This document shows, in pieces, positions 22,131 to 44,435 of a stretch of DNA of 49,766 nucleotides. The position numbers and the translations under genes are program-made. The stretch covers positions 1 through 49,766 of the IMG/VR virus record IMGVR_UViG_3300038441_000163, one strand, 5' to 3'. The notes under the pieces were generated by a model. It worked only from the letters and a program-made list of their open reading frames with translations. It ran no database searches and was not told where the DNA came from. The DNA comes from a virus. Position 1 is the first letter of the stretch. Each line of letters begins with the position of its first letter.

Positions 22131-22159
22131 AGGGTCACTCCTGTTGTTGAAGTGACCCT
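22131..22159 (-). promoter_or_regulatory. RBS-masking hairpin at P22.2
   Basis: Minus strand AGGGTCACT, an 11-nt loop, then AGTGACCCT, a perfect 9-bp stem. The right arm contains most of the Shine-Dalgarno (AGGAGTGA) and ends 3 nt before ATG. The left arm overlaps the proposed -10 box, so only RNA entering from upstream would contain both arms. Confidence 0.7.
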
Positions 22160-22183
22160 AGAACATCGCCGTATTCGTTGCAA
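22155..22183 (-). promoter_or_regulatory. Putative promoter P22.2
   Basis: TTGCAA, 17 bp, TAGGGT. A weaker match than the other early promoters, but with the same spacing. The surrounding ACGGTTGCAACG resembles the CGGTAGCAATG element of the others. Drives 21883-22128. Confidence 0.45.
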
Positions 22184-22189
22184 CCGTGT

Positions 22190-22492
22190 TTAGACAAAAC
22201 GGTTACTGAATACTTTACGCCGTTCTGCATGAACCGGGAACCCCATTGCCATTCCATCGGCAAATTCAAGGTGCATGAACATGCCGTGTTGTGTGAACGT
22301 CACAACAGGCAACTCCCCGTAAAGGTATGGCGCAGTCTTGTGCAGGCCGTTAGTTGACCCGACAAGATGGCTGGTACGGTTAGCAACGACAAGTGTATTG
22401 CCCTGCTTATCATCGTATTCGGTAAACGGCGCAATCTTCTGCACGCCGTTCCGAAAAAACTGCCTAATGCTTTGGCATGCCTTGCATGACAT
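22190..22492 (-). CDS. Unknown early protein with CxxC
   Basis: A 100-aa protein beginning MSCKACQSIRQFFRNG, then beta-rich (GNTLVVANRTSHLVG; ELPVVTFTQHGMFMHLEFAD). It starts inside the previous gene (29-bp overlap) after AAGG. The N-terminal CxxC could bind metal. No family recognised. Confidence 0.65.
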   Translation of the reverse strand: MSCKACQSIRQFFRNGVQKIAPFTEYDDKQGNTLVVANRTSHLVGSTNGLHKTAPYLYGELPVVTFTQHGMFMHLEFADGMAMGFPVHAERRKVFSNRFV

Positions 22493-22778
22493 TGAGGATA
22501 CCTTTCTTTTGACTAGCCGTCATGAACCGTTCAGCAAAGTTAGCCTTTTCGATCCAGTGCGCCTCACACTTGGCAGCAAATGCCGTGATCCGTCCGACGT
22601 TGATTGTGTTGTGGGCAACGTCAACGCCGACCTTGATTGCCCAATGTCCGACCGTGATGTTATCGTAAAGGTCGATTGGGCGAAGCATCTGGAACGGGGT
22701 CAAGTCTGCCACGATATCCGCGAATAGACAGTGATCCCCGTTCGCATAGTAAGGCTTGACCTTACGTGAACTTTTCAA
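22464..22778 (-). CDS. Unknown early protein (start uncertain)
   Basis: About 104 aa if translation begins at the TTG at 22778; no ATG or GTG lies near the expected start. Sequence: PYYANGDHCLFADIVADLTP, then VGHWAIKVGVDVAHNTINVG and a C-terminal ERFMTASQKKGILNVM. The frame is open and overlaps both neighbours in the compact early style. No function visible. Confidence 0.5.
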   Translation of the reverse strand: MKSSRKVKPYYANGDHCLFADIVADLTPFQMLRPIDLYDNITVGHWAIKVGVDVAHNTINVGRITAFAAKCEAHWIEKANFAERFMTASQKKGILNVMQGMPKH

Positions 22779-23040
22779 TGCGCTCAACAAGTGCGTTCCT
22801 CTGGTCATAGCGTTCCGCGTCTTCTGCCCGGTGCAACAGGTCCGCGACAGCCCGAAACTGCAAGGCGACCTCGCGCCGGTCGGCCTGATACTTGGAAAGC
22901 CGTTCGTTGGCTTCCTGCAACGCCTTTTCGATTGCCGCAACGTTCGCCTGTTCGGCCTTGACGAGATCGTCATGAGCCGTCATCTGGCCGTCAAGCTGAT
23001 TGGACAGGTGCGCCAGATCGGCATGATTGGGAATAGTCAT
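22762..23040 (-). CDS. Small coiled-coil early protein
   Basis: 92 aa from the ATG at 23040 (AAAGGA, 9 nt spacing). Almost entirely helical with heptad character (QANVAAIEKALQEANERLSK). Likely an oligomer or adaptor. A TGCCCACA-family site (GCCCACA at 23080-23086) lies upstream, in the short gap. Confidence 0.7.
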   Translation of the reverse strand: MTIPNHADLAHLSNQLDGQMTAHDDLVKAEQANVAAIEKALQEANERLSKYQADRREVALQFRAVADLLHRAEDAERYDQRNALVERIEKFT

Positions 23041-23087
23041 TTGGTGTAGTCCTTTCACCGCTGTTGATGGTTTGGTTTAGCCCACAG

Positions 23088-23369
23088 TTACGAAGGCGTC
23101 AACCCTTTCGCCCGATCCTTGGACACGACCACGAACTCGCCAGAACGCAACGCTTCAAGCGTTTCTCGTTCTTCCGGGGAAAGGTCACGAAGCGACACCG
23201 GGGCCAAAGGGTCCGGGTTCTTTTCGACCAGCTTCGAAACCGCATTGGCAATGATCGCCAGATTGATCGCCGCGCCACCAAGCAGGAGCGCACCTATTGT
23301 TTCATCGCCGCCGTCAGTTGCCGCAACCAAACGGTGCGCGTTGTCCTTCACGCTATCAATATCGTTCAT
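23088..23369 (-). CDS. Unknown early protein
   Basis: A 93-aa protein: MNDIDSVKDNAHRLVAATDG, then a moderately hydrophobic helix (IGALLLGGAAINLAIIANAV) and an acidic/basic C-terminal half (SPEERETLEALRSGEF). The hydrophobic helix could be a membrane segment or buried. Overlaps the VRR-NUC gene by 4 bp (ATGA). Confidence 0.68.
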   Translation of the reverse strand: MNDIDSVKDNAHRLVAATDGGDETIGALLLGGAAINLAIIANAVSKLVEKNPDPLAPVSLRDLSPEERETLEALRSGEFVVVSKDRAKGLTPS

Positions 23370-23851
23370 TCGTCCAACCCTTTCCCGGTTAGATATAGTT
23401 TGATTTCACTTGCCGCCGCGTACCAGTCATAGCACACGACAACCTTGTATCCCTGCCCCTCAAGGGCATTTAGCCATTCGACTTGAACGTCAGATACGCC
23501 GCCCGTATCCCACTTGTGTTCAGGTCGCCGCTTAAGCCGGGCGCTTGGCCGTTTCATCTCGACGTAGAGCCCGCAGTATATCGATGCAATCCTAACAAGA
23601 GGATCATTGATTTCGTGGCGGGGCGCTGGCACCGGCAAGAATATGTCAGGGACACCCGAGCGCGTACCTTCCGCTTTCATTCGGGCCGCGACGATCTTGT
23701 TGCGCTCGCCGCCGTTGGGGATCGCATGCAAGAGCCGTAGCCGTTCATCGTTGCGGAAATTCATCGCCGCCCAACAGAACAACGCACATTGGTGCGTATG
23801 TTCGTCGGCTTCGTTAAACGGGACTTTCTTGAAGTAGTCGTCCGGGGTCAT
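23366..23851 (-). CDS. VRR-NUC domain nuclease
   Basis: 161 aa from the ATG at 23851 (ATGA overlap with the previous stop). VRR-NUC motifs are clear: HAIPNGGERNKIVAARMKAE, GTRSGVPDIFLPV (catalytic-type Asp) and LYVEMKRP (catalytic Glu-x-Lys). SDVQVEWLNALEGQGYKVVV (Gln) and AAASEIKLYL follow. Stand-alone VRR-NUC proteins in phages act as PD-(D/E)xK endonucleases, for example on branched DNA. Role here: recombination, packaging-related trimming or host DNA attack. Confidence 0.88.
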   Translation of the reverse strand: MTPDDYFKKVPFNEADEHTHQCALFCWAAMNFRNDERLRLLHAIPNGGERNKIVAARMKAEGTRSGVPDIFLPVPAPRHEINDPLVRIASIYCGLYVEMKRPSARLKRRPEHKWDTGGVSDVQVEWLNALEGQGYKVVVCYDWYAAASEIKLYLTGKGLDE

Positions 23852-24222
23852 GGCATAAACAATGAGGTAATGGCCGGGAGCATAAAGACCAGCCAAAGAA
23901 ACTTATATCCCTTGGCGCGGTGTTCTGCCTTGTCGCCGCGATGTTTTTGATCAAGGTACTGTTCCCGCCAGTAATCGACCTGTTCAACCGTAGCAGCCAA
24001 AGCCTTACGATCTTCTGCCCGGTTCTTACGCGCCTGTTCCAGATAGTCGGAATTAGCCTTCTGCAAGTCGTTGCGCATCTTGACTAGGCCGTCAATCCGG
24101 TTCGCGTATTCGCTGTTGGTCTTAGCTAGTTCCGTTACCTTGTCGGCAAGACCTTTGTTGATCGCCTCAAGCTCTACCGCCTTAGCGGTAAGCGTCACGA
24201 AATCCTGTGCCATATCACCCAT
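23848..24222 (-). CDS. Coiled-coil protein with C-terminal membrane anchor
   Basis: 124 aa from the ATG at 24222 (AGGTGA just upstream). Residues about 12-100 are one long coiled coil (LEAINKGLADKVTELAKTNS; LQKANSDYLEQARKNRAED). The end, FLWLVFMLPAITSLFMP, is a tail anchor. Such early proteins may tether host or phage factors to the membrane. Function unknown. Confidence 0.7.
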   Translation of the reverse strand: MGDMAQDFVTLTAKAVELEAINKGLADKVTELAKTNSEYANRIDGLVKMRNDLQKANSDYLEQARKNRAEDRKALAATVEQVDYWREQYLDQKHRGDKAEHRAKGYKFLWLVFMLPAITSLFMP

Positions 24223-24226
24223 GTTG

Positions 24227-24421
24227 TCACCTGTCGTTGAGTGTGTCGTAACGGTCGTAACCGGTATCCGTGATGAACACCCGGTTGTTCTCGACACGAA
24301 CATAGCCATCAGACAACGCCTTGTCTATAGCTGCCGCAAGATCAAGAGTGACCGGGATTTCCAGATTATCGACCAGCTTTTGCAAGAGCCGATATTCAGC
24401 CGTTTGAGTTATCGGTGCCAT
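24227..24421 (-). CDS. Small unknown early protein
   Basis: 64 aa from the ATG at 24421, preceded by AAGGAG with TGCCCACA lying between ribosome-binding site and start. Helical first half (TAEYRLLQKLVDNLEIPVT), then a winged-helix-like ending (DKALSDGYVRVENNRVFITD, then TGYDRY). It could be a small DNA- or protein-binding domain. Confidence 0.65.
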   Translation of the reverse strand: MAPITQTAEYRLLQKLVDNLEIPVTLDLAAAIDKALSDGYVRVENNRVFITDTGYDRYDTLNDR

Positions 24422-24809
24422 TGTGGGCAGTCTCCTTATTTGGGACGATCTCGATATGATAGCCCAAGACCGCGAGCATGGCATCAACTTCGCCCGTCTT
24501 AGACATATAGCCACGAAACCGCATATCGTAAAACCGGTTTTGGTTTATCCCTGCCTTGGTTAAGAAAGATTTAACCTCAAGTTTTTGGTGCTCGATTTCG
24601 TCGCAAATCCACTGAATTATCGTGTCAGTATCCGCGTCGTAACCGACTGCTTTCTTTACGATCCGTTGTTCAACAATGCGCCGCCGTATCGCGAAGGTTG
24701 ACCGATGAAACATGTATGCAATATCAGCTACGCTAACGCCGTCTGCCCACAGTCGGGCTAGGCGTGCGTCATCTGCCGCACTCCAACGTTTCCAGCGGTT
24801 ATCGTGCAT
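24396..24809 (-). CDS. GcrA/SANT-like DNA-binding protein
   Basis: A 137-aa protein. The N-terminal 45 residues (RWKRWSAADDARLARLWAD, GVSVADIAYMFHRSTFAIRR) have the helix-turn-helix pattern of GcrA/Myb-type domains, where a Trp-containing first helix precedes an IA-x-(M/L) turn. The C-terminal half is unlike GcrA and contains another helical domain (KLEVKSFLTKAGINQNRFYD). Likely a regulator of phage or host promoters. GcrA itself is restricted to alphaproteobacteria, which supports the host guess. Confidence 0.72.
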   Translation of the reverse strand: MHDNRWKRWSAADDARLARLWADGVSVADIAYMFHRSTFAIRRRIVEQRIVKKAVGYDADTDTIIQWICDEIEHQKLEVKSFLTKAGINQNRFYDMRFRGYMSKTGEVDAMLAVLGYHIEIVPNKETAHNGTDNSNG

Positions 24810-24990
24810 TGATCGGGAACCGGATATAGCGTTTCAAGCCAGCGTCAGGAGCTTCCTGCCGGGCGCGCATGCGGGTCTTGACCGCTGCAACACTGAAGTC
24901 GCCCCCGCCGCTCAGATCGCCTGCCAGCTTGACGCGAGGTGCGCCGGGTTTGTTCTTGGTTGGGCGAAAGCCACCGCGTTTAGTTCTCAT
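24799..24990 (-). CDS. Small basic protein
   Basis: 63 aa, very basic and Gly/Pro-rich (MRTKRGGFRPTKNKPGAPRV), ending AGLKRYIRFPINAR. Probably disordered and able to bind nucleic acid. It overlaps both neighbours (ATGA upstream, 11 bp downstream), so it is surely co-translated. Confidence 0.65.
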   Translation of the reverse strand: MRTKRGGFRPTKNKPGAPRVKLAGDLSGGGDFSVAAVKTRMRARQEAPDAGLKRYIRFPINAR

Positions 24991-25253
24991 GGATGGTTCC
25001 TAAGTACGATTGCTGCAATTTCATCGTCGGTTGTTTCCAACGTTGCAAGCAATGCCGCCGCTTCAGCTTCAGTAGCGTAATAATCGCTATCACGCGAACC
25101 CGGTTCGGTAAACAGGAGCTTGCCGTTTTCATCACGGTTTTCGTAAACCGTACCAACGTACCACCCAGCCGCCGAACGCAAAACTCGTAAGTCAGAGTAA
25201 CCCGACTTGTCTTTGATATACCCGGCATTTGTTACCATTGGGCTTTTCATCAT
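24987..25253 (-). CDS. Unknown early protein, first gene after P25.3
   Basis: 88 aa; the start at 25253 is chosen for GGAGGG 4 nt upstream (an ATG at 25250 follows directly). Sequence MMKSPMVTNAGYIKDKSGYS, then a beta-hairpin-like SAAGWYVGTVYENRDENG and a helix TEAEAAALLATLE. No family recognised. Confidence 0.7.
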   Translation of the reverse strand: MMKSPMVTNAGYIKDKSGYSDLRVLRSAAGWYVGTVYENRDENGKLLFTEPGSRDSDYYATEAEAAALLATLETTDDEIAAIVLRNHP

Positions 25254-25263
25254 ATCACCCTCC

Positions 25264-25296
25264 ATAAAAGAACACCCCGACCATAAGGCCGGGGTG
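25264..25296 (-). terminator. Terminator nested in promoter P25.3
   Basis: Minus strand CACCCCGGCC / GGTCGGGGTG (10-bp stem with one G-U, 4-nt loop), then TTCTTTT: a strong intrinsic terminator after the MazG-like gene. The -10 box of P25.3 lies in its loop and right arm, so RNA begun there escapes termination while incoming RNA is stopped. Confidence 0.8.
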
Positions 25297-25308
25297 CTAC
25301 CATGTCAA
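25280..25308 (-). promoter_or_regulatory. Promoter P25.3
   Basis: TTGACA, 17 bp (TGGTAGCACCCCGGCCT), TATGGT. Upstream flank CACGGCAGCTA and spacer GGTAGCA match the other early promoters. Drives the 25253-to-22190 gene block. Confidence 0.75.
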
Positions 25309-25323
25309 TAGCTGCCGTGAAGT

Positions 25324-25926
25324 TTAAAACTTCTTCCCGCCCGGCTTGGCACGGTTTGCAATATCATGGTCCGGACGTGCCGCGTTGACGGGGGTCTTAA
25401 GCAGGAACGCTTTGCCCATGTCGTAAAGCTCGCGATAGTTCTCAACGCCTAAGTCGAGATAGGACGGTGGAACCTCGATATAGTCCATAGCGGTTGCAAT
25501 CTGAAGACAACCAAGCAAGTCACCGATACGGATAACCGCGTCGGTGAGTTCGGCAGTAATGCCGGGCATTGGTATCTTGTCGTCAACCGCATCGACGCGG
25601 TAGGCTTCCAACGCTTCCGAAATTTCGGAGTGGATCAAAGCAATCTTAGTACCCACAACGTAGGGGAACCACGCCTTGACAAGGTCGGGTTCTGCCGGGC
25701 GCTGTTCGAAATAGCCGCGTTCGCCGTTGGTATCGAGCACACCGGGAATAAGCGACAGTCCGGTAATGGGGTCGTGCCACCAACCGCGATTAAAGCTGGC
25801 GGCGTGCGTGTTCCAGACAAGCAGGCTCATAGCCTTCGCCAAGATTTCGCCGTTGGTATACGGCATGGTCGTGTTCAGGTCGTCAAGGCCATGCAATGCA
25901 AGCTGGGGGAAGTTGGTATCAGTCAT
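25324..25926 (-). CDS. MazG-like nucleotide pyrophosphohydrolase
   Basis: A 200-aa protein. The MazG-type signature is IALIHSEISEALEAYRVD (E-x-x-E/A metal ligands), followed by GITAELTDAVIRIGDLLG (E-x-x-D). These enzymes hydrolyse NTPs or (p)ppGpp-related nucleotides; phage versions are thought to adjust host nucleotide or stress-signal pools. Followed by a strong terminator. The start overlaps the previous stop by 1 bp. Confidence 0.82.
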   Translation of the reverse strand: MTDTNFPQLALHGLDDLNTTMPYTNGEILAKAMSLLVWNTHAASFNRGWWHDPITGLSLIPGVLDTNGERGYFEQRPAEPDLVKAWFPYVVGTKIALIHSEISEALEAYRVDAVDDKIPMPGITAELTDAVIRIGDLLGCLQIATAMDYIEVPPSYLDLGVENYRELYDMGKAFLLKTPVNAARPDHDIANRAKPGGKKF

Positions 25927-26204
25927 TATTCAATCCTTTCGCCCCGTTCATGGAGCATCATGCAGAAGTTTGCCACGTCAACAGGATCACCCTTTTCAAC
26001 GTGTTCGCGCAACATACGCGATAGTTCAGCCGCGCTTACACGGTCTTTATCTTGCCAACCACCCCGCCCCATACTCCGAGCATGTGCCATCTTGGTAGCC
26101 ATGGCACGGGCAAAGTTAGTTACTGCTTTGCTATCCGGGTGCGGTTCCTTTGGACCAACCCAAGCAAATAGTCCGTCGCGGTCTTGATCCATTGAACTAC
26201 CCAT
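25926..26204 (-). CDS. Conserved phage early protein (WQDK / DPVDVANFCMML motif)
   Basis: A 92-aa protein with ATKMAHARSMGRGGWQDKDR, then LSRMLREHVEKGDPVDVANF and CMMLHERG. This motif set is common in phages as a short domain, often near or fused to MazG-like or nucleotide metabolism proteins. Its location directly before the MazG-like gene fits. Molecular role unknown. Confidence 0.75.
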   Translation of the reverse strand: MGSSMDQDRDGLFAWVGPKEPHPDSKAVTNFARAMATKMAHARSMGRGGWQDKDRVSAAELSRMLREHVEKGDPVDVANFCMMLHERGERIE

Positions 26205-26207
26205 AGT

Positions 26208-26690
26208 TCAGTCTTTCGGTTCGTTGGGGTTTGGAGGGAATGCCGCGTTCAAAACTTCCGCGACGAGCTTAGCAGTAACTGTGTTGGTAGCATAGACAAC
26301 CGGCCCGCCAAGGCTGATTGCCTTGCCCTTGGCCGTGCTGACAGTTGTAACCGACCGTTTCATGATCGGGTAAAACTCAGGATCACCCTGATTGTCATAG
26401 GTTACATCGTCAACGTAAAACAATGGTTCCAACGGTTCGACCGGGACAGCGTTATCCCCAAACGACCGGTGCCAGTCATCCAGCCGCCGCGACCATTCGT
26501 TTCCGCTGTCAACCTGAGTATAGTTGACCATAACCGGGAACTTGTCGCTGACGTGCGCCGTGTTGCGCAAACCGTCGATACGATAAAGGCGGCCGGAATG
26601 ATGTTTCCAGACTTCGCCCTTAGCCGGGATCGAAAGGCCGCGCATGCCGTAGCTCTCAGCGATTTGCTGCATAGTCATATCTTGGGACAT
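26208..26690 (-). CDS. DUF1653-like domain protein
   Basis: 160 aa from the ATG at 26690. Residues about 25-75 (GEVWKHHSGRLYRIDGLRN, then VNYTQVDSGNEWSRRLDDWH) match the DUF1653 beta-barrel pattern of K-H-x-x-G-x-x-Y followed by a W-x-R-x-L region. The C-terminal half is unrelated (ISLGGPVVYATNTVTAKLVA). Function of DUF1653 is not established. Confidence 0.7.
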   Translation of the reverse strand: MSQDMTMQQIAESYGMRGLSIPAKGEVWKHHSGRLYRIDGLRNTAHVSDKFPVMVNYTQVDSGNEWSRRLDDWHRSFGDNAVPVEPLEPLFYVDDVTYDNQGDPEFYPIMKRSVTTVSTAKGKAISLGGPVVYATNTVTAKLVAEVLNAAFPPNPNEPKD

Positions 26691-26694
26691 TGTT

Positions 26695-27066
26695 TCACCA
26701 CTTGGAACTGTCAAAGACCAACCGTACACCGCCCGGTGTGGGCTCGCAATCTAGATCGTCGTCAGGGTTAACGCCCACAGTCTCAGCCGCGTGCAAGACA
26801 CCCATGACGATAGGGAACCGTTGGCTTACATCGCGAGCTAGTAGTTTGAAATCAAGCCGGGGCGGTTCTGCCAAGCCTAGTTCGACTTCAAGATTGCCCC
26901 CGGTCGGCAGTTCGCACATAGCAACCCAAAGCATATACGCCGCTTTACGATCCCATGACGGGTTATCAATGCCCGGCACTACAACGTTTTCAAGTATCCG
27001 TTGCCAGTCGCCTGCGAAGAAGGCCGCAAACTCGGGGTCGGGTTGGTCGCCGGGCTTATAGGTCAT
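26695..27066 (-). CDS. Unknown early protein
   Basis: 123 aa from the ATG at 27066, which overlaps the upstream stop (ATGA) and follows AAGGAG. Sequence MTYKPGDQPDPEFAAFFAGD, then KAAYMLWVAMCELPTGG and VSQRFPIVMGVLHAAETVG. Folded, mixed helix/strand, no recognised family. Confidence 0.68.
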   Translation of the reverse strand: MTYKPGDQPDPEFAAFFAGDWQRILENVVVPGIDNPSWDRKAAYMLWVAMCELPTGGNLEVELGLAEPPRLDFKLLARDVSQRFPIVMGVLHAAETVGVNPDDDLDCEPTPGGVRLVFDSSKW

Positions 27067-27302
27067 GTTAGCCACTCCTTTAGCCGGGCTTCATGATCCA
27101 ACTGGCAAATGGTCTTAGCATCCGCCAGAATGTAGTATTGGGCATCATGTCCGGGGTTATTGCAACCCAAAACTAGGTGAGCGTCACCTATGGTTATGAT
27201 ATAGTAAACCTTGTTGATACCTACTGCCTGATAAACGACGTTTGGCTCAAGGTGCACCGTCCCCCATTTGAGAGGCTTAAACCTCGGATCGCGCTTGCTC
27301 AT
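27063..27302 (-). CDS. Small unknown early protein
   Basis: 79 aa: a basic N-terminus (MSKRDPRFKPLKWG), then beta strands (NVVYQAVGINKVYYIITIGD; HLVLGCNNPGHDAQYYI) and a C-terminal helix. ATGA overlaps on both sides. No family recognised. Confidence 0.68.
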   Translation of the reverse strand: MSKRDPRFKPLKWGTVHLEPNVVYQAVGINKVYYIITIGDAHLVLGCNNPGHDAQYYILADAKTICQLDHEARLKEWLT

Positions 27303-27463
27303 TTCGTACGCACCTTGTTATAGGCGCTGTGCAACTTATCCGAAACCTTCGTTGCAAGTTCATTGCCGGGGCCGGGTGTAAACGCAAGATCAAAGTTGCT
27401 CATAAGCTCCCAAAGCTCCGCCTTGGTAAGCGTGATTGAAATCTTTGGTTCTTTCACCGTCAT
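27299..27463 (-). CDS. Small unknown early protein (54 aa)
   Basis: Starts MTVKEPKISITLTKAELWEL and ends HSAYNKVRTK. The frame has ATGA overlaps with both neighbours (start 27463 in the upstream stop; stop 27299 in the next start), which makes it convincing despite its size. One short strand followed by helices. Confidence 0.72.
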   Translation of the reverse strand: MTVKEPKISITLTKAELWELMSNFDLAFTPGPGNELATKVSDKLHSAYNKVRTK

Positions 27464-27681
27464 GATATGCACCTAAACATTCCACCACCCAACCGCCTGA
27501 AGTTGCGGTGTACATTTTCCAGAAACTCGACGCAATCGGCACAAGTGACGGTTTCGTCAAACTTGGCGAACACGACCGGGGGCTTACCGTCGCTGTCACC
27601 GCTAGCATGATCGTCAAAAGCCCGACCACATAGCGTATACTCGCCACCTGTATTCGGTTGTTCACCACAACGTTTAGCCAT
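27460..27681 (-). CDS. Small Cys-containing early protein
   Basis: 73 aa from the ATG at 27681 (8-bp overlap with the previous gene). Cysteines at positions 5 and 17, a CxxC in ETVTCADCVEFLENV and one near the end (MFRCIS) suggest a small zinc-binding fold. A preceding polar loop (HASGDSDGKPPV) separates the pairs. Confidence 0.68.
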   Translation of the reverse strand: MAKRCGEQPNTGGEYTLCGRAFDDHASGDSDGKPPVVFAKFDETVTCADCVEFLENVHRNFRRLGGGMFRCIS

Positions 27682-28150
27682 GACGCCGCGCCTTTCGTGC
27701 TGCCTTGTTTTTCGCCCGGCGCTTGGCGAGACGGTTCGACGCTCCACCCTTGGGGCCGCGCCCGCCCTTACCGCTGCCGTGCCGCACCTTGTAAATGCCT
27801 AGCATGTCTTCGGCAGTGATCGGGATGCGTTCATTGGCGTAATAGTCAATGATACGCTGTTCAAGAGTCTTGTAGTCGCCCGGCTCATTGTTGGTAAGCT
27901 GTGCCATTTCGTCAAGGGTTTCAGCCGCGTCAATGGTATAGGTAATGACGTGCTCGTCGCTACCGGCGTCAACGCCCGCGACCTTCACCGGAATAACGCC
28001 CTGTTCAAGAGCAATCCGGCCTGTAATCGTTTTGCCGATGTTGCGCCCGCCGCCCATTATAACCTTGTGATCGCCAACCGTCACATAGGCTTGCTGGAAC
28101 TCGCGCAAGGTATCATCAAACGCTGTCACTTCGACTTTGTCGTCAGTCAT
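27674..28150 (-). CDS. Early protein with P-loop-like motif and basic tail
   Basis: 158 aa from the ATG at 28150 (8-bp overlap). GGGRNIGKT near residues 33-41 matches the Walker A pattern G-x4-GK(S/T), preceded by a strand (DHKVIM). No clear Walker B or other NTPase motif follows. The C-terminus is strongly basic (RLAKRRAKNKAARKARRHG), typical of nucleic-acid binding. It could bind RNA or DNA; NTP binding is uncertain. Confidence 0.65.
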   Translation of the reverse strand: MTDDKVEVTAFDDTLREFQQAYVTVGDHKVIMGGGRNIGKTITGRIALEQGVIPVKVAGVDAGSDEHVITYTIDAAETLDEMAQLTNNEPGDYKTLEQRIIDYYANERIPITAEDMLGIYKVRHGSGKGGRGPKGGASNRLAKRRAKNKAARKARRHG

Positions 28151-28373
28151 CGTCCATTTCCTTCTTACCGTTGTTATAGGCTTCCAGCGCCATCTTAATA
28201 TCTTTGCGAACCTTAGACCAAGCGTGAACTTGCGTCTCGTCGTCAACGTCTACCAGAAGCCAAGGCCCGACCGTTTCGGCCCGGAAGTGTCGCCCCTGTT
28301 GAATTAGAGCCAACTTAATCTTGTTGGCCATCTTAGGGCTGTACTTGATCCGTAGTGTAGGGAATGCGGCCAT
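28143..28373 (-). CDS. Small unknown early protein
   Basis: 76 aa: MAAFPTLRIKYSPKMANKIK, then strands (FRAETVGPWLLVDVDD) and a C-terminal acidic helix. The start overlaps the previous stop by one base (TGATG). No family recognised. Confidence 0.65.
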   Translation of the reverse strand: MAAFPTLRIKYSPKMANKIKLALIQQGRHFRAETVGPWLLVDVDDETQVHAWSKVRKDIKMALEAYNNGKKEMDDD

Positions 28374-28573
28374 CAGGGCAATCGCGCCTTGCGGAAATCG
28401 TTAGGATGATAGATGCCTGCATTAACCCGAGCAATCCGCATGTTCTCAATCGCCTTGCGAATGTGGGCTTTGCGTTGGGTATGAGAAAGAACACCAGCAA
28501 GGCCACCACGAACAAAGAATGAAGCCGCAGCCATGTGGGTGGCGACGACGCCTAGATGAGACTGCTTTGCCAT
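28373..28573 (-). CDS. Small unknown early protein, first gene after P28.6
   Basis: 66 aa: MAKQSHLGVVATHMAAASFF then a basic second half (SHTQRKAHIRKAIENMRIAR). The leader AGGAGATACCA-ATG is almost identical to the leaders at 31916 and 32200. Likely a small helical protein. Confidence 0.68.
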   Translation of the reverse strand: MAKQSHLGVVATHMAAASFFVRGGLAGVLSHTQRKAHIRKAIENMRIARVNAGIYHPNDFRKARLP

Positions 28574-28591
28574 TGGTATCTCCTGTTGTTA

Positions 28592-28623
28592 AAAACAGAA
28601 TAGACGGGACCATTGGCCCCGTC
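28592..28623 (-). terminator. Terminator-like hairpin nested in promoter P28.6
   Basis: Minus strand GACGGGGCC / GGTCCCGTC (9-bp stem with one G-U, 3-nt loop), then TATTCTGTTTTT. The stem exactly fills the promoter spacer and the U-rich tract includes the -10 box. Incoming RNA could end here; RNA starting at the promoter lacks the stem. Confidence 0.65.
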
Positions 28624-28625
28624 AA
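28597..28625 (-). promoter_or_regulatory. Promoter P28.6
   Basis: TTGACG, 17 bp, TATTCT. A copy of CGGTAGCAATG lies just upstream of the -35 (28635-28645, within CACGGTAGCAATG) rather than in the spacer. CTGTT at the -10 edge pairs with AACAG beside the ribosome-binding site (5 bp). Drives 28573 and the genes below. Confidence 0.78.
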
Positions 28626-28653
28626 CACCTTTTTCATTGCTACCGTGTTTTAA

Positions 28654-29472: not shown

Positions 29473-29510
29473 TTGTTTTAACTTTCACCGTTGTTGATTA
29501 GACCGTTAGC

Positions 29511-30115: not shown

Positions 30116-30116
30116 G

Positions 30117-30375: not shown

Positions 30376-30594
30376 TTAATCAATGTTGTTGCGGGCAAGA
30401 TCGCCGCTATCATGGGCAGCGTGCACAAGGTTATGGGCAACGCGGTATTCGCGGCCACTAACTTCAACCAAGCACGTCTTGGGCGAAACCTTCTTCACGA
30501 CGCCGGTATGTGGCACATAGTCGTGGCGGTGATCCGGCATAGCTACGCGGAAGTATGCGACAACGATTTCGCCTTCTTTACATTCGGTAGTCAT
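30376..30594 (-). CDS. Small beta-rich early protein, first gene after P30.6
   Basis: 72 aa: EGEIVVAYFRVAMPDHRHDY, then TGVVKKVSPKTCLVEVSGRE. This is a KOW/SH3-like barrel pattern. Strong ribosome-binding site AAGGAG, which pairs with sequence at the -10 edge of its promoter. Confidence 0.68.
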   Translation of the reverse strand: MTTECKEGEIVVAYFRVAMPDHRHDYVPHTGVVKKVSPKTCLVEVSGREYRVAHNLVHAAHDSGDLARNNID

Positions 30595-30605: not shown

Positions 30606-30624
30606 CCTTGGTTGTTATCCAAGG
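30606..30624 (-). promoter_or_regulatory. RBS-masking inverted repeat at P30.6
   Basis: CCTTGG directly at the -10 edge is the perfect complement of CCAAGG, which overlaps the AAGGAG ribosome-binding site; loop 7 nt. The left arm lies upstream of the expected transcription start. Confidence 0.6.
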
Positions 30625-30652
30625 TTATAAACGTGACCATTGCTGCCGTCAA
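30624..30652 (-). promoter_or_regulatory. Promoter P30.6
   Basis: TTGACG, 17 bp (GCAGCAATGGTCACGTT), TATAAC. The best -10 of the minus-strand set; its -35/-10 pair is the same as that of the plus-strand promoter at 44383-44411. Confidence 0.85.
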
Positions 30653-31916: not shown

Positions 31917-31942
31917 TTGGTATCTCCTGTTCAATGACTACT

Positions 31943-31971: not shown

Positions 31972-31999
31972 TAGGGTCCGTGAAAATAGCTGCCGGGGA

Positions 32000-32200
32000 T
32001 TACTCCCCGGCGAAAACTGCCGTACCGGCACCATCATACTTATTCTTGATTGCAATCAAGTGCGCTGCCGACTTAAGTGCGTTTTCTTCCGTAGCACATG
32101 CGCCGACCGTTTCAACCTTGCCGCTCTCAAGTTGGCAAAGAACCTTCCACTCACGCTTGCCACCGGCCTTAAACTCAACGCTGTAAGTGAACTTGGTCAT
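32000..32200 (-). CDS. Small early protein, cassette with P32.2
   Basis: 66 aa: MTKFTYSVEFKAGGKREWKV, strands, then a helix (EENALKSAAHLIAIKNKYDG) and AGTAVFAGE. Leader ACGGAGATACCAA-ATG matches those at 31916 and 28573. Compare the neighbour at 31707-31916. Confidence 0.7.
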   Translation of the reverse strand: MTKFTYSVEFKAGGKREWKVLCQLESGKVETVGACATEENALKSAAHLIAIKNKYDGAGTAVFAGE

Positions 32201-32225
32201 TTGGTATCTCCGTTTTGTTGATACC

Positions 32226-32254
32226 CTTGTACGCCCCCATTGCTACCGTGTCAA
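32226..32254 (-). promoter_or_regulatory. Promoter P32.2
   Basis: TTGACA, 17 bp (CGGTAGCAATGGGGGCG), TACAAG; preceded by ATCACGGAAGCAA. GGTATC directly after the -10 (32225-32220) is the perfect complement of GATACC between ribosome-binding site and start codon. Confidence 0.78.
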
Positions 32255-36248: not shown

Positions 36249-36254
36249 CGAAAT

Positions 36255-36372: not shown

Positions 36373-36396
36373 GCTCCACAGGAAGCCCGGCGACTA

Positions 36397-36450: not shown

Positions 36451-36471
36451 GACTAAACCACAAGAGGAACC

Positions 36472-37164: not shown

Positions 37165-37176
37165 GGAACTTATACC

Positions 37177-38190: not shown

Positions 38191-38215
38191 TACCCCGGCT
38201 AACTGCCGACCCAAC

Positions 38216-38246
38216 AAGGCGCGGCTAATCCCCGCGCCTTTCTTTT
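38216..38246 (+). terminator. Terminator after the SSB-like gene
   Basis: AAGGCGCGG / CCGCGCCTT, a perfect 9-bp stem with a 7-nt loop, followed by TCTTTTC. A strong intrinsic terminator inside the replication operon; it should lower expression of the downstream enzymes relative to Sak4 and SSB. Confidence 0.9.
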
Positions 38247-38267
38247 CTCAACTGCTTAGCGGTAGCC

Positions 38268-39167
38268 ATGACCCGAGTACTATACCCACACGAACGCACA
38301 GCGATTGCCAAGCAGATCAAAGACGCGGTGAACGAATATTGCGCTGTCACATACGACGACGGCCACCGTACGCACCTCGGCGCATCGCTGATCGGACACG
38401 AGTGCAGGCGCTACCTTTGGTACGTCTGGCGTTGGGTCAAGCAGGCTGATTTCATCAACGATAAAGGCGAGAACCATAAAGGCCGTATGCAACGGCTGTT
38501 CAATCGTGGCCATCGTGAAGAGGAACGGTTTATCGAGTGGTTGCGCGGGATCGGGTTCACCATTTGGGACATTGACCCGGAAACCGGCAATCAAATCCGG
38601 GTCAGCGGTGTTGAAAAGCATTACGGCGGTTCACTGGATAGTGTGGGCAAGGCCCCGGCATGGTTGCACCTGCTGGCAGAGGTCGGCCCCTTTCTGGTCG
38701 AATACAAGACACACAATGCCAAGAGCTTCGCTAAGCTCGTCAAGGATGGCGTCAAGGTAACAAAGCCCCAGCATTGGGCGCAAATGTGCACTTACGGCAG
38801 CTACTACAAGTTCAAATATGCCTTATACTGTGCCATCAACAAAGATGATGACGACATTGATTTCCAGATTGTGGAACTCGATTGGGCGTTGGGTATGGAG
38901 AAATACCGGCTTGCGGAAGAGGTCATTCAGGCCGTTCGCCCGCCGCCGCGCCTGTCGGAACTGCCGTCATACTTCAAGTGCAAGACCTGTGACTTTCGCG
39001 GCATATGCCACAAGAGCGAACAGTACGAAAAGAACTGTCGTTCGTGTGCATTCGCGACACCAGTTAAAGACGGTCAATGGTTTTGCGGTGTGAACAACGA
39101 TGTTATCCCGAAAGACTTCATCCCCAAGGGGTGCGGCCAGTGGAAGCCGGTAGGCCGTAATGGTTGA
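38268..39167 (+). CDS. Cas4/AddB-like Fe-S PD-(D/E)xK nuclease
   Basis: A 299-aa protein. Nuclease core: GGSLDS (Asp124), VEYKTH (Glu145, Lys147), QHWAQM (Gln168). Four cysteines fit the Cas4/AddB iron-sulfur staple: Cys46 before the core (LIGHECRRYLW) and Cys238, Cys241, Cys247 after it (CKTCDFRGIC). Further Cys257, 260, 273 and 289 suggest an added zinc site. Probably a single-strand exonuclease that makes ends for Sak4/SSB annealing. Overlaps the helicase gene by 8 bp. Confidence 0.85.
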   Translation: MTRVLYPHERTAIAKQIKDAVNEYCAVTYDDGHRTHLGASLIGHECRRYLWYVWRWVKQADFINDKGENHKGRMQRLFNRGHREEERFIEWLRGIGFTIWDIDPETGNQIRVSGVEKHYGGSLDSVGKAPAWLHLLAEVGPFLVEYKTHNAKSFAKLVKDGVKVTKPQHWAQMCTYGSYYKFKYALYCAINKDDDDIDFQIVELDWALGMEKYRLAEEVIQAVRPPPRLSELPSYFKCKTCDFRGICHKSEQYEKNCRSCAFATPVKDGQWFCGVNNDVIPKDFIPKGCGQWKPVGRNG

Positions 39168-40857
39168 ACGCGAATACCAAACCGCTGCAATCGATAAGAC
39201 GTTCGAATACCTGAACGCGACGACAGGTGACGGTCTTGTGCTAATGCCCACAGGCACTGGCAAGTCACATGTCATCGGCGGCATTATTAAGCGCGCCTTG
39301 ATGCACGGGCCGAACCGTCGCATTCAAATGTTGGTCAACTCGAAAGAGATTATCCAGCAGAACTATGACAAGTTGTTGGAGACTTGGCCGGGTGCGCCGG
39401 TCGGCATCTACTCGGCTGGTCTGAACACCAAACAAGCATACATGCCGGTCACCATGGCCGGGATCAAGTCGGTTAAGTCAAAAGCCCAAATGTTCGGGCA
39501 TACCGATCTTTGTTTGATTGACGAGGCGCACCGCGTTCCGCAGGACGACGAAACCGAATACCGGGCATACATCAACGAGCTACGGGAAATCAACCCATAC
39601 ATGCGCGTCGTCGGCTTCACGGCGACCGGCTGGCGTATGGGTCAGGGCAAGCTTACCGATCCGGGCGGCTTGTTCACTGATACCATTATCGACCAGACGC
39701 AACTACATATCTTCAATCGGTTCTTTGATGAAGGTTATCTAGTGCGGCTAGTGTCGCGCCCTATGCAAACCAAGCTGGACGTTTCCGGCATTGGCATGTC
39801 GGGCGGCGACCTGAATATGGCACAGGTGCAAAAGCGCGTTGATAAAGCCGAGATAACTTGGCAGGCGCTTCAAGAATTGGTCAGCTACGGCATACACCGC
39901 CGCAAGTGGCTGATCTTCGCCAGCGGTGTAGAACATGCCGACCATATCGCGGAAATGCTCAACCGCATGGGCTTCCCGACTACGGTTGTGCATAAGGGTG
40001 TCAAGAAAAAAGACCGTGACCAGCGCATTGCCGAGTTCAAGGCCGGGGGTAAGTGGCGCTGTATCGTCAACAACAACATTCTGACTACCGGCTTTGATGA
40101 CCCCGGTATTGATCTAATCGGCGTGTTGCGCCCGTCAATGTCATCGTCACTGTGGGTACAGATGTTAGGTCGGGGTACGCGCCCGCTCTATGCAAAAGGT
40201 TTCGACCTCTCGACCATTGAGGGACGATTGCTCGCAATTGCCAATAGCTACAAGCAAAACTGTCTGGTGCTCGACTTTGCCCACAATACCAGCAATTTAG
40301 GGCCGATCAACGACCCGGTATTGCCACGGGCGGCAGGAGGTGGCGGCGGTGGTCCGCCTATCAAGATTTGCGAAACGCAACGGCTTAAGCACCGCGATAA
40401 GGGTGTGCAGGGTTGTGGCTGGTATAACCATCCGTCTTATAGGTTCTGCGAGGAATGCAGCGCTGAATTTGACTTTGCGGTCAAGTTCGGTTCCGAGAGT
40501 AGCAACGTTAGTCTCATCAGCGACGGGGAAGACAACTTCGAATGGTTTGATATCCAGTTTGTAGGGTACAGCCGCCAAATCGGCGCGTCAGGTGTCCCAT
40601 ACCTTCGCGTTGACTACTGGTATACGGATAAGAAGAAATGGACGGATTACGTAAACCTTGAACATACGGGGTTCGTTCAGCATAGAGCACACCAATGGTT
40701 TCTAGCCCGGTTTAAACACCCGGAATGGGGACCACCACCAACGGTTGCGGAAGCGCTCAAATACTGCAATAATAAGTACATGCGCGAACCAGTTAAAATA
40801 CGGGTTTGGAAAAACAAGGAACCCTTACCCGAAATCGTCAACTATGAATACGAGTGA
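39160..40857 (+). CDS. SF2 DEAH-box helicase (RadD-like)
   Basis: A 565-aa protein: Walker A MPTGTGKS (residues 29-36), DEAH (121-124), motif III-like GFTATGW, motif IV-like KWLIFASGVEHADHIAEMLN and motif V TTGFDDPGIDLIG. Motif VI is QMLGRGTRP. After about 400 a four-Cys zinc finger (GCGWYNHPSYRFCEECSAEF) and a C-terminal domain follow, an arrangement seen in RadD/phage UvsW-like helicases that act on branched recombination intermediates. Confidence 0.9.
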   Translation: MVEREYQTAAIDKTFEYLNATTGDGLVLMPTGTGKSHVIGGIIKRALMHGPNRRIQMLVNSKEIIQQNYDKLLETWPGAPVGIYSAGLNTKQAYMPVTMAGIKSVKSKAQMFGHTDLCLIDEAHRVPQDDETEYRAYINELREINPYMRVVGFTATGWRMGQGKLTDPGGLFTDTIIDQTQLHIFNRFFDEGYLVRLVSRPMQTKLDVSGIGMSGGDLNMAQVQKRVDKAEITWQALQELVSYGIHRRKWLIFASGVEHADHIAEMLNRMGFPTTVVHKGVKKKDRDQRIAEFKAGGKWRCIVNNNILTTGFDDPGIDLIGVLRPSMSSSLWVQMLGRGTRPLYAKGFDLSTIEGRLLAIANSYKQNCLVLDFAHNTSNLGPINDPVLPRAAGGGGGGPPIKICETQRLKHRDKGVQGCGWYNHPSYRFCEECSAEFDFAVKFGSESSNVSLISDGEDNFEWFDIQFVGYSRQIGASGVPYLRVDYWYTDKKKWTDYVNLEHTGFVQHRAHQWFLARFKHPEWGPPPTVAEALKYCNNKYMREPVKIRVWKNKEPLPEIVNYEYE

Positions 40858-40871
40858 AAAGGAAAACTCAA

Positions 40872-42305
40872 ATGGCACGTAGACCCGGCGCGGGCCGTAA
40901 ATCCGCAAAGAATGAAGCCGCAACAGCTTTGCTTGCGGCGTTGAAGTTCGGTTCCGTTCTCAAGACGGCAACCACTACGTCAATGGTACAGGCGCACTAC
41001 GTGTTCATGAACACGGGCACTGCCATCATGTTCGACGGCGTCGTTGCGGCTGGTCATCCGATCCCGGCTGACATTGCCGGTTATCCCCATGCCAAGTTGT
41101 TGGCGGAAGCGCTCGACAACACCGACAAGACGTTTACCCTGACCGTTCATGATAACGGCAATTTCGAAATCGGGTCAGACAAGTACAGCGCCCTTGTCCC
41201 GGCGTTGGAATACTCGCAGGTAATTCCGACCTTCCCGGATAACCAGCAGGTGCCAATTCGTTCGCCCGATCTATTCTTGGCGGCCATGAATAACGCACTA
41301 AAGGTCACAGTTGAAACCGGCGACGTGGTTCTTTACTCGTCCGTGCGGTTCACGGGCGGCAGCATCATGGGCACCAACGGTGCGGCAATGCTTGAAACCC
41401 GCGTCGAAGACCAGTTGCCGGAAATCATCGTTCCCCGGCAATTCGTGGCGTCAGTGGTCAAAGCGGCAGCAACGCTGAAACCTATTGGCATGGGTCTGTC
41501 AAACGACTGGACGTCATTCACGGTCTGGTTCGAAAACGGCGCGTGGCTGCGTACCAACCTATACGACAACGACACGTGGCCAACCGACGCGTTGGACCTG
41601 TTCTATCAGGCGATCAATGCCAGTCGTCCCGACATGCAACCGCTCGACCCCAAGTTGTGGGCAGCTATAAACGCGGTGTTGCCATTCACCGATACCGATC
41701 AGCGGGTTATAATCCGCCCCGGCATCGTGCGCACGCATCCCGACCGACACCATGGCGCGGCACTTGAAGTCAAGGAATGTACAACCACGTTTGACGTTGA
41801 CGGCAAGCGCTTCGCGGCACTGGCAGAAGTCGCAAAGAACGGCAGCGTTCTGAACGGCTTTGAAGTTCCGCTTATGGTTGTGTTCGGTGACAACTGCCGA
41901 GGCATCGTCGCCGGGCTTCAGCCTCTCCCCGAGCCTGAGACTTCGACCGGACCAACGTCAGGTTGGGGAAGTGGTCAGCCAAGCCCACAGGAGCCCGCTA
42001 GCAAGCCGGGCGGGTCTTGGTCCATTCAGGGTAGTGTTGAGCCGCCCCCGGAAGGCAGCGCCGAGAAGCAAACGGAATGGAAGGGTGGTCCCCAGCCGGG
42101 TAATGGGTACGATCCTGAATTTCTGAGCGCGGCGCTCGACCAGCCGGAAAGCGATTTCCGCGATGACGATAACTTCATTCTGGTCAACCCCGGCGATACC
42201 GGCATTGTGCTCAACAACAGCCAGTTTAAACCGTCAACTTGGGTTGATAACTTGACCGACGAAGACGGCGGGTTTAATACCGACAATAACACTAACGGTT
42301 GGTAA
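40872..42305 (+). CDS. Sliding-clamp-like protein
   Basis: 477 aa from the ATG at 40872 (AAGGA 8 nt upstream); an in-frame GTG at 40854 would add 6 residues. N-terminal ALKFGSVLKTATTTSMVQAH, MFDGVVAAGHPIPADIAGYP and LTVHDNGNFEIGSDKYSALV match phage proteins with the DNA-polymerase-III-beta fold. The core ends near 355 (FEVPLMVVFGDNCRGIVAGL). A disordered Pro/Gly/Ser tail follows, then an acidic C-terminus. Located directly before the polymerase gene, it probably provides processivity. Confidence 0.75.
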   Translation: MARRPGAGRKSAKNEAATALLAALKFGSVLKTATTTSMVQAHYVFMNTGTAIMFDGVVAAGHPIPADIAGYPHAKLLAEALDNTDKTFTLTVHDNGNFEIGSDKYSALVPALEYSQVIPTFPDNQQVPIRSPDLFLAAMNNALKVTVETGDVVLYSSVRFTGGSIMGTNGAAMLETRVEDQLPEIIVPRQFVASVVKAAATLKPIGMGLSNDWTSFTVWFENGAWLRTNLYDNDTWPTDALDLFYQAINASRPDMQPLDPKLWAAINAVLPFTDTDQRVIIRPGIVRTHPDRHHGAALEVKECTTTFDVDGKRFAALAEVAKNGSVLNGFEVPLMVVFGDNCRGIVAGLQPLPEPETSTGPTSGWGSGQPSPQEPASKPGGSWSIQGSVEPPPEGSAEKQTEWKGGPQPGNGYDPEFLSAALDQPESDFRDDDNFILVNPGDTGIVLNNSQFKPSTWVDNLTDEDGGFNTDNNTNGW

Positions 42306-42309
42306 GACT

Positions 42310-44376
42310 ATGGGGCTTTTCGACGGCATAGCAATGGTATCGAAAAAGGAAGCGCATATTAAGGCGCTTCCCCCGATACCGTATACAGGTTGGAAAGCCC
42401 CATCCACGTTTCCCAATCTCTCGGCAGCGGTTAGGCTGTCGTTTGACTGTGAAACGAAAGACCCGGAACTAACGCAGGCGGGCCCCGGTTGGGCGCGAGG
42501 TCGCGGCCATATGGTCGGCTGGTCGCTGTCTGCACAAGATCGCCAAGGCAACATTGGGGAATGGTATTTCCCGATGCGCCATGAGGTCAACCCGGAAGAG
42601 AACCTAGACCCTATCAGGTGCCTACAGTTCGCACAGCACGCCCTAGGCGACAACACGTTGCCGAAGATCGGCGCGAACCTGCTTTACGATATTGGTTGGA
42701 TGGCAGAAGAAGGGGTCAGCGTTCGCGGCCCCTTCCACGATATCCAGTTTGCCGAAGCTATCCTAGACAACAATGCGGAAGGCGTTGCGCTCGATACGCT
42801 GGCAGTCAAATACCTTGGTGAGCACAAGCGCACGGACAAGCTCAAGGAATGGGCCAAGCTCGCGTACGGCACGACTGACAAGACATGGCGCAGGGACATT
42901 TACCGGTGCCCGCCGTCGCTGGTCGGGTTCTATGGTGAAGGTGACGCCAACCAGCCTTTGCGCATCATTCAAAAGCAATGGCAGATTATTGCCAACGACG
43001 ACCTAGGCGAGATTTACGACCTAGAACACGGCATCATTCCGCTGCTGATAGCTATGCGCCGGGGCGGCGTTTACGTTGATGTTGCTGGGGCGCACCGGTT
43101 CCGTGCCGAGCTAGAGAACGACATTACCGAACTATACCACAAGGTTGAACATGAGTTCGGTTATCGACTGGTCAACACGAAGGGCGATGAAAGCAGCGAC
43201 AGCCGCCAGATTGGCAAGCTGTTCGACCATATCGGCATTACCTACCCCCGAACCAAGCCGACCCGGACAGCGCCGAACGGCAACCCGTCCATTCAAAAAG
43301 AATTTCTTGAGGCACTTAAACACCCGGTAGCCGACGCGGTATTAGCTATCCGGGAACACGAAAAGATTAAGGGCACGTTCGTTGAGAGCTACATTCTCGA
43401 CAAGAATGTCAACGGCTACATTTACCCGCTATTCCACCCACTAAAAGGTGAGAGCAACGGAACCATGTTGGGTCGGTTCTCGTCATCCGATCCCAACTTC
43501 CAGAACATTCCGAGCCGTACCGAACTCGGCAAGCGCATCCGCAAACTGGTGCCTAAGCGCCCCGGTCATGCGCTATACCGAAAGAACGACTATTCACAAA
43601 TCCATTACCGCATCTTGGCGCACTACGCGGTTGACGATCCCAACGGCCCATATGGGGGCGCTGAAGCGCTACGGCAGTCTTACATTACCAATCCCGACAT
43701 GGATTATCACCGCAAGGTGTACATGGAAGTCGCACCGCTCATGTCGTGGTCAACGACTGACGAAGAAATAATCGCGGTCAAACGCCGCCCGATTAAGAAC
43801 GTCAACTTTTCATTGCTCTATGGTGTGGGCAAGGAAACAATGGTCTATAAGTATCTCAAGGGAATGAGTGACGCCGAAGTTACGAACTTCTTTGACGCAT
43901 ACTATACCGGCGCACCATACGTTAAGCCCACAATGAAAGCGATTGCTGATGAGGCCGAAATGTTCGGCTACATTCGCACGTTGCGCGGGCGCAAGGTTCG
44001 GTTCAACCTTTGGGAGCAACGCGGCTTCAACAAGGAAAAGCAACCGGCGCTCAAGTACGAAGAGGCGATTAAGCGCTACGGCAGCTTCATTCAACTGGCA
44101 TACCTTTACCGTGCAGTGAACTACAAGTTCCAAGGTTCCGAACCCGATATCATGAAAGCCGGGATGCTGGCTTGCTGGAATAGTGGCGTGTTCGACTATA
44201 CCGGTGTTCCGCAGATTACCGTTCACGACGAACTAGGGTGGAGCCAACGCGACGAGAGCCCCGAAATGAACGAAGCGTTCCGGTTTATACAACATACTAT
44301 GGAAACAACCACAAGAATGCGGGTTCCGATCAAGGTAGATAGCACTACGGGCGATACTTGGGGTGATTGTGCGTAA
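42310..44376 (+). CDS. Family A DNA polymerase with 3'-5' exonuclease
   Basis: A 688-aa protein. Exonuclease: SFDCET (Asp46, Glu48), LLYDIGWM, and YGEGDANQPL. Polymerase: motif A NDYSQIHYRILAHYA (Asp427), motif B RRPIKNVNFSLLYG (Arg492, Lys496, Tyr504), motif C VHDELGW (His639, Asp640, Glu641). In motif A the usual steric-gate Glu is His432 (CAT codon), which could weaken discrimination against ribonucleotides. All catalytic acids are intact, so the enzyme should proofread and polymerise. Confidence 0.93.
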   Translation: MGLFDGIAMVSKKEAHIKALPPIPYTGWKAPSTFPNLSAAVRLSFDCETKDPELTQAGPGWARGRGHMVGWSLSAQDRQGNIGEWYFPMRHEVNPEENLDPIRCLQFAQHALGDNTLPKIGANLLYDIGWMAEEGVSVRGPFHDIQFAEAILDNNAEGVALDTLAVKYLGEHKRTDKLKEWAKLAYGTTDKTWRRDIYRCPPSLVGFYGEGDANQPLRIIQKQWQIIANDDLGEIYDLEHGIIPLLIAMRRGGVYVDVAGAHRFRAELENDITELYHKVEHEFGYRLVNTKGDESSDSRQIGKLFDHIGITYPRTKPTRTAPNGNPSIQKEFLEALKHPVADAVLAIREHEKIKGTFVESYILDKNVNGYIYPLFHPLKGESNGTMLGRFSSSDPNFQNIPSRTELGKRIRKLVPKRPGHALYRKNDYSQIHYRILAHYAVDDPNGPYGGAEALRQSYITNPDMDYHRKVYMEVAPLMSWSTTDEEIIAVKRRPIKNVNFSLLYGVGKETMVYKYLKGMSDAEVTNFFDAYYTGAPYVKPTMKAIADEAEMFGYIRTLRGRKVRFNLWEQRGFNKEKQPALKYEEAIKRYGSFIQLAYLYRAVNYKFQGSEPDIMKAGMLACWNSGVFDYTGVPQITVHDELGWSQRDESPEMNEAFRFIQHTMETTTRMRVPIKVDSTTGDTWGDCA

Positions 44377-44382
44377 TAGGTG

Positions 44383-44411
44383 TTGACGGGAGCAACGAAG
44401 CCGTTTATAAC
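44383..44411 (+). promoter_or_regulatory. Promoter P44.4
   Basis: TTGACG, 17 bp (GGAGCAACGAAGCCGTT), TATAAC; the same -35/-10 pair as P30.6. Drives two small genes before the terminator. Confidence 0.85.
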
Positions 44412-44435
44412 TCTAGTCAACGAAACAGGAGTTAT
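44407..44435 (+). promoter_or_regulatory. RBS-masking inverted repeat at P44.4
   Basis: ATAACTC (44407-44413), overlapping the -10, is the perfect complement of GAGTTAT (44429-44435), which overlaps the AGGAG ribosome-binding site; 15-nt loop. The left arm lies wholly upstream of the expected start of transcription, so only read-through RNA from the polymerase gene can fold. Confidence 0.65.

Follow-up and report, generated by a model that had tools for sequence, protein, structure and literature searches.

The question raised by a 49,766-base virus record from IMG/VR (IMGVR_UViG_3300038441_000163; this whole stretch is called the window here) is whether some of its promoters are built so that the gene behind each is translated from RNA begun at that promoter but not from RNA arriving from an upstream gene. 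We think it probable that these promoters are portable sockets, each insulated against read-through either by a mask of the kind known from T4 gene e, in which the −10 region is complementary to the ribosome-binding site (RBS), or by a terminator. Much of the evidence comes from comparison with the closest metagenomic relative, G003 (IMGVR 3300010042_000002), whose DNA polymerase is 83% identical to that of the window.

At four promoters (P22.2, P30.6, P32.2 and P44.4), bases in or directly behind the −10 box form the perfect inverted complement of a segment at the Shine-Dalgarno sequence (SD) of the open reading frame (ORF) that follows. The predicted transcription start (+1) was placed by counting the usual 12 bases from where the −10 box begins. 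The elements are as follows.

22178..22183 (−): −35-like TTGCAA (weak) of P22.2, 17 bases from TAGGGT; in G003, TTGTAA-16-TAGGGT
22151..22160 (−): P22.2 left arm TAGGGTCACT, −12 to −3, perfectly complementary to the right arm over 10 bp
22130..22139 (−): P22.2 right arm AGTGACCCTA, from the SD towards the AUG of ORF 21883-22128
30647..30652 (−): P30.6 −35 box TTGACG, with a 17-base spacer to TATAAC (30629-30624)
30619..30624 (−): P30.6 left arm CCTTGG, −7 to −2, 6 bp
30606..30611 (−): P30.6 right arm CCAAGG, overlapping the SD of ORF 30376-30594
32249..32254 (−): P32.2 −35 box TTGACA, with a 17-base spacer to TACAAG (32231-32226)
32220..32225 (−): P32.2 left arm GGTATC, −6 to −1, 6 bp
32203..32208 (−): P32.2 right arm GATACC, overlapping and extending behind the SD of ORF 32000-32200
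44383..44388 (+): P44.4 −35 box TTGACG, 7 bases past the DNA polymerase stop, with a 17-base spacer to TATAAC (44406-44411)
44407..44413 (+): P44.4 left arm ATAACTC, −11 to −5, starting within the −10 box, 7 bp
44429..44435 (+): P44.4 right arm GAGTTAT, overlapping the SD of ORF 44441-44680

The proposed P22.2 promoter is TTGCAA-17-TAGGGT, and therefore its −10 box belongs to the left arm, of which it makes up the first six bases; TAGGGT serves as a −10 box in relatives too, among them G005, where it belongs to a TTGACG-17 promoter. The preliminary description had proposed a genome-wide set of masked promoters, six out of nine, with arms of 9, 5, 6, 6, 6 and 7 bp at P22.2, P28.6, P30.6, P31.9, P32.2 and P44.4, respectively. 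All six complementarities exist, and the lengths are as given there except for P22.2, which has 10 bp and not 9. Masks are supported, however, at four window promoters, one of them weakly, and no longer at P31.9 and P28.6, so that "genome-wide" was an overstatement.

AT-rich or purine-rich −10 and RBS motifs could pair by accident, and an ancestral socket carrying such a pairing could then have been duplicated. The bearing of chance on the arms was judged with a promoter set chosen mechanically (TTGACN, 16-18 bases, a −10-like hexamer, a short leader, an SD and the ATG of an ORF), limited to sites outside long ORFs and assembled with no reference to the arms. This set has nine members in the window; P22.2 is absent because its −35 sequence is TTGCAA. 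In the window alone, complementarity of k at least 6 was seen in 4 of the 9, as compared with 11% when arms were exchanged between promoters (p = 0.026), and pairing energy gave p = 0.02-0.06. These values are compatible with accidental pairing, as are the occurrence of GGAGATACC in several sockets and the cases of P31.9 and P28.6, where the pairing is probably accidental (see below). In contrast, four close relatives taken without the window gave an energy permutation p of 0.0001 and z = −5.4 against dinucleotide shuffles, p-values being guides only because related sequences are not independent. When the close clade of five related genomes was pooled, k of at least 6 was found in 36% versus 10%, and pairing energies lay 6.4 standard deviations below those of the shuffles (z = −6.4) for the left window −16 to +3 only; left windows beginning at −56, −44 or −32 gave no signal. 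Moreover, the arms vary among sockets and change together. The earlier expectation that the complementarity exceeds chance is, therefore, met only suggestively by the window by itself, whereas chance is excluded at the level of the clade, and we regard accident followed by copying as an unlikely account.

Outside the close clade the signal fades. Kimi, Birtae and R3 together gave z = −3.3 and other relatives z = −4.6, while Kakheti25 showed no masking in permutation or shuffle tests. Unrelated IMG/VR loci gave z = −1.9 with no peak at −16 to +3 in a composition-controlled test, and for this reason we make no general claim beyond the clade. A scan by promoter, leader and SD with the arms left unspecified, over a set that mixes phages of differing base composition, brought back the sockets already known, plus a handful of odd cases from other phages. 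The excess of complementarity is real and is a property of this clade, with a fainter trace in the wider family; the weaker statistics for Kimi, Birtae, R3 and other relatives suggest that the masked promoter may extend across it.

When sockets of the window and G003 were aligned, pairing was retained while letters changed. At P30.6, CCTTGG/CCAAGG of the window is replaced by CCTTAG/CTAAGG in G003, a compensatory change, and at P22.2 one C-G pair became U-G. G003 carries a mask at P44.4 as well, TGGATAAC/GTTATCCA, with another left arm and in another register, and the presence of masks with different arms in the two genomes supports, at the level of sequence, a mask at this promoter. The P32.2 arms have the same letters in G003, and 5 bp are retained in L089. 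Other masks in relatives have arms of their own: GGGGGTAAC/GTTACCCCC in G004 and G005, whose ORFs are 57% identical, and GTGTCAC/GTGACAC in an extra socket of G003. The best case in a named isolate is that of Birtae (L005 40024-40094), where CTGCTAGCCTTCC/GGAAGGaCTAGCAG form 13 pairs with one bulge across the −10 box and reach the RBS of ORF 40094-41062.

The same comparisons bear on the possibility that a DNA-binding protein acting at −10/+1 uses the inverted repeats as operators, and that they do not act as RNA structures. Palindromes over −10 and +1 are a common position for repressors, and the spacer motif GGTAGCAAYG, common to the sockets (see below), hints at a regulator. The arms, however, have no common sequence, the loop length differs among sockets, and an operator would be expected to conserve letters rather than pairing alone. 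One operator common to all sockets was rejected because the arms differ, and we consider operators of any kind to be quite improbable.

Several related structures were noted in passing. In viral contigs L465 (9176, −) and L431 (10118, −), the −10 box TAACATGT is complementary to ACATGTTA around the start codon, a possible independent case of masking. L170 (13261, +) has an 11-bp perfect hairpin, AGTCCCCTGAT/ATCAGGGGACT, that ends immediately 5′ of an ATG and has SD-like purines inside its right arm; no promoter was recognized there. A socket of R3 (L006 11720, +) has a TTGCTG-GCAA-CAGCAA hairpin with a GNRA loop immediately 5′ of the SD, and its left arm begins where the −10 box ends.

Returning to RNA masks, folding predicted that the SD and AUG are paired in upstream-started transcripts of P22.2, P30.6 and P32.2, and weakly so for P44.4. 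The predicted cost of opening the SD-to-AUG segment in read-through RNA versus the promoter's own RNA was 18.3 (range 17-21) versus 3.1 kcal/mol for P22.2, 10.3 versus 3.0 for P30.6, 8.2 versus 1.4 for P32.2, and 8.9 versus 6.6 for P44.4, a small gap. The gap for the first three was 3-15 kcal/mol in the window and G003 alike, and the best relatives required 15-20 kcal/mol in read-through RNA versus 3-5 in their own. Folding of the four window masks was hardly affected when the assumed +1 was shifted 3 bases either way. The contention that read-through RNA is closed and the promoter's own RNA open is supported in silico for P22.2, P30.6 and P32.2, weakly for P44.4, and not for P31.9.

These predictions depend on the start site. 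If transcription began 5′ of the left arm, the hairpin would be carried by the socket's own mRNA as an ordinary RBS-occluding regulator, such as a thermosensor or a structure opened by a protein or RNA. The 5′ ends are predicted, and the hairpins would occlude the RBS in every transcript that holds both arms. However, the left arm shares bases with good TTGAC-17-TANNNN promoters or abuts their downstream end, and the predicted +1 is the first base of the conserved leader motif AACAA (an A in 17 of 28 sockets), which is independent support for the start site. An upstream start accordingly has, in our estimate, little probability.

Three other promoters bear terminator-like hairpins with T-rich tails in both the window and G003, placed upstream of the promoter (P31.9), inside its spacer (P28.6) or around its −10 box (P25.3).

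31992..32011 (−): terminator-like hairpin GCCGGGGAGTAATCCCCGGC + AGCTATTTTC upstream of P31.9; GAGGGGCGAAAGCCCCTC at the same place in G003
31933..31938 (−): GTCATT of P31.9, complement (6 bp) of AATGAC at the start codon
28603..28623 (−): terminator-like hairpin GACGGGGCCAATGGTCCCGTC + TATTCTGTTTTT in the P28.6 spacer (−35 to −10), with a 9-bp stem, conserved in G003
25271..25298 (−): terminator-like hairpin containing the P25.3 −10 box TATGGT, with 12 pairs including G-U and a T-rich tail

The P31.9 hairpin differs between the window and G003 at one shared position; that of P25.3 is conserved in G003, and in G001 its stem is retained without the T tail. A mask at P31.9 was rejected, since opening costs only 2.3 versus 1.4 kcal/mol and the arms do not pair in G003; its GTCATT/AATGAC complementarity is probably due to chance. 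A mask at P28.6 (CTGTT/AACAG) was rejected as well, having 5 bp only and a terminator-like hairpin in the spacer. Both promoters are better explained by terminator insulation. Conversely, a terminator stem-loop was sought at P22.2, P30.6, P32.2, P44.4 and the extra G003 socket, and none was found. In the window and G003, then, supported masks always lack a terminator and terminator promoters always lack a supported mask, an alternation that points to a shared purpose, the exclusion of read-through. That the mask hairpins themselves terminate the upstream transcript or serve it as RNase sites, with RBS occlusion incidental, is very improbable, and a terminator function was rejected: P30.6 was flagged as terminator-like and adjacent sockets bear terminators, but behind the hairpins of P22.2, P32.2 and P44.4 lies AAATG or CGGCTATG and no T run, and their pairing takes in the start region, something for which termination has no need.

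A further strong hairpin, GGGGTCAGC..GCTGACCCC, with a T-rich tail lies at 18277 (−) of the window, immediately behind a −10-like box and upstream of gene 17542-18195. It is retained with other letters in relatives, with counterparts at L168 19162 (−) and in L164 near the homologue of that gene.

Predicted masking at P22.2, P30.6 and P32.2 is well supported in silico, because the left arm lies within −12 to −1 of the predicted start, because the folding gap is robust to a shift of +1, and because the mask is absent where a terminator does that job; P22.2 and P30.6 gain further support because relatives retain the pairing through altered letters.

The sockets also behave as units of exchange. 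Six are common to the window and G003, with the segment from −35 to ATG 79-98% identical, whereas the ORFs behind them are unrelated (protein local scores of 16-31; DNA at the random level).

32254, 31971, 30652, 28625 and 25308 (−) and 44383 (+): the six common sockets in the window, compared with L167/L169
32238-32247, 31955-31964, 28635-28644 and 30638-30647 (−): the motif GGTAGCAAYG

A conserved socket followed by unrelated ORFs indicates that the insulated promoter is the unit for ORF exchange, and the common sockets would be plug-in sites for orphan genes. The motif GGTAGCAAYG lies directly 3′ of the −35 box in most sockets and just upstream of it at P28.6; a regulator of the phage or of the host may bind it. 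Promoters of Kakheti25 (L007 36134, 37876, 39822 and 41784) have a repeated spacer motif of another kind, CTTCGAA/CGTCGAAG, and the spacer signature seems to differ from phage to phage. IMG/VR DNA-pattern scans for GGTAGCAAYG and for TAGGGTCA..TGACCCTA gave mostly unrelated matches.

The window itself is from an uncultured bacterial virus with a siphophage gene set (terminase, portal, major head, tape measure, primase, Sak4, SSB, Cas4-type exonuclease, helicase and family-A DNA polymerase) in an order similar to that of Septimatrevirus (Kakheti25). By DNA polymerase, the nearest named phages, at about 54% identity, are Paracoccus phage vB_PmaS-R3 (R3) and Sphingomonas phages Kimi and Birtae; the metagenomic relatives are nearer (G001, 76%; G004 and G005, 65%). 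The window primase alone retrieved no close relatives as a query, and these were obtained via alignments of the named relatives. Window bases 15000-39999 had no near DNA match in the phage collection, the GTDB genomes scanned yielded a single distant relative and nothing more, and comparison of the window with Rfam gave no family match.

We propose that the sockets are small portable units of promoter, short AACAA-type leader, RBS and ATG, which would insulate the ORF behind them. In the mask type (P22.2, P30.6, P32.2 and P44.4), the segment from the −10 box to the last base before the predicted +1 complements the RBS/start region, so that RNA coming from an upstream gene has both arms and would fold its RBS away, while the socket's own RNA, starting at or just past the end of the left arm, would keep it open. 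In the terminator type (P31.9, P28.6 and P25.3), the incoming polymerase would meet a GC-rich hairpin and its T-rich tail and stop there. The likely use is that the gene is made solely while its own host-type promoter is active, with no product from later transcripts that cross the early region towards downstream genes; early expression is suggested by the sigma70-like promoters alone.

Several points weigh against this proposal. Start sites and masking are predictions, the −35 sequence of P22.2 is weak, and the predicted gap at P44.4 is about 2-3 kcal/mol. The window by itself is marginally significant and only suggestive. The mask-or-terminator pattern was spotted post hoc over some eight independent sockets, and P23.1 carries neither device; nor does a promoter-like site at 11088, and these two may not be promoters. 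The close relative G001 is without a clear mask, and in the wider family, where the signal is weaker, orthologous genes (of R3, Kimi and others) do not retain masks. We would give about even chances to the broader idea that siphophages of one clade, relatives of Sphingomonas and Paracoccus phages, share a standard masked promoter that is portable and forms an insulated socket for swapped small orphan genes, with −12 to −1 serving as both promoter and RBS antisense in place of a terminator.

If the proposal is true, it gives phages a compact route, at no cost in extra DNA, to deafen a gene to its neighbours' transcription, and a repeated module that permits foreign small genes to be plugged in safely. 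It would then go some way towards explaining how small orphan genes can be swapped and yet stay unexpressed by the operon around them, and would supply a rule by which insulated promoters could be designed. Inverted repeats close to a promoter should be compared with the RBS and not with operators alone.

Guarding against fortuitous read-through has a parallel in IS10/Tn10 and IS200, where, in work attributed to Davis in 1985 and Beuzon in 1999, RNA from outside promoters reportedly folds the transposase RBS away. Both papers are among the references of PMC2965389. There a single transposase gene per element is protected, whereas here it would be a set of phage genes; no insertion sequence or transposase was found at the sockets, and the masked ORFs (66-81 aa) had no significant Pfam or PHROG family.

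As far as they are described in PMC4503421 (citing Arbiol 2010 and Comeau 2014), PeSL cassettes of T4-like phages are units of promoter and stem-loop, many per genome, that are kept while the intervening ORFs shuffle. By that description, P25.3, P28.6 and P31.9 resemble them in having a promoter beside an intrinsic-terminator-like stem-loop, as do the six conserved sockets with exchanged adjacent ORFs. Unlike these cassettes, the mask-type sockets have no terminator, make their stem-loop with the RBS, and belong to an unrelated phage family.

The closest precedent is the one cited, correctly, in the preliminary description. T4 genes e, soc, 49 and I-TevI and mobE of phage Aeh1 use a late-promoter/RBS-hairpin switch, in which SD and AUG are folded away in read-through RNA, the DNA specifying the 5′ arm includes the promoter, and RNA begun there stays open; for gene e, repression is about 100-fold (PMC3014915, PMC2988022). 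Here, too, read-through RNA is predicted to hide the SD and AUG; at e and I-TevI the promoter is inside left-arm DNA, and in the sockets the left arm lies at −12 to −1 relative to the predicted +1. The T4 switch, however, uses phage late promoters at individual genes that are silent early and on late, whereas the window has sigma70-type promoters, several sockets per genome and arms of 6-10 bp in −12 to −1, and the timing is probably opposite. No T4-type late promoter (TATAAATA) was found; the sockets have TTGAC-17-TANNNN promoters and stand in a Septimatrevirus-like gene order. On our analysis, the masked sockets would function like the T4 switch and yet lie outside the T4 family, and they differ from that switch in recurring at sigma70-type promoters, in having very short arms within −12 to −1, in alternating with terminators, and in being portable.

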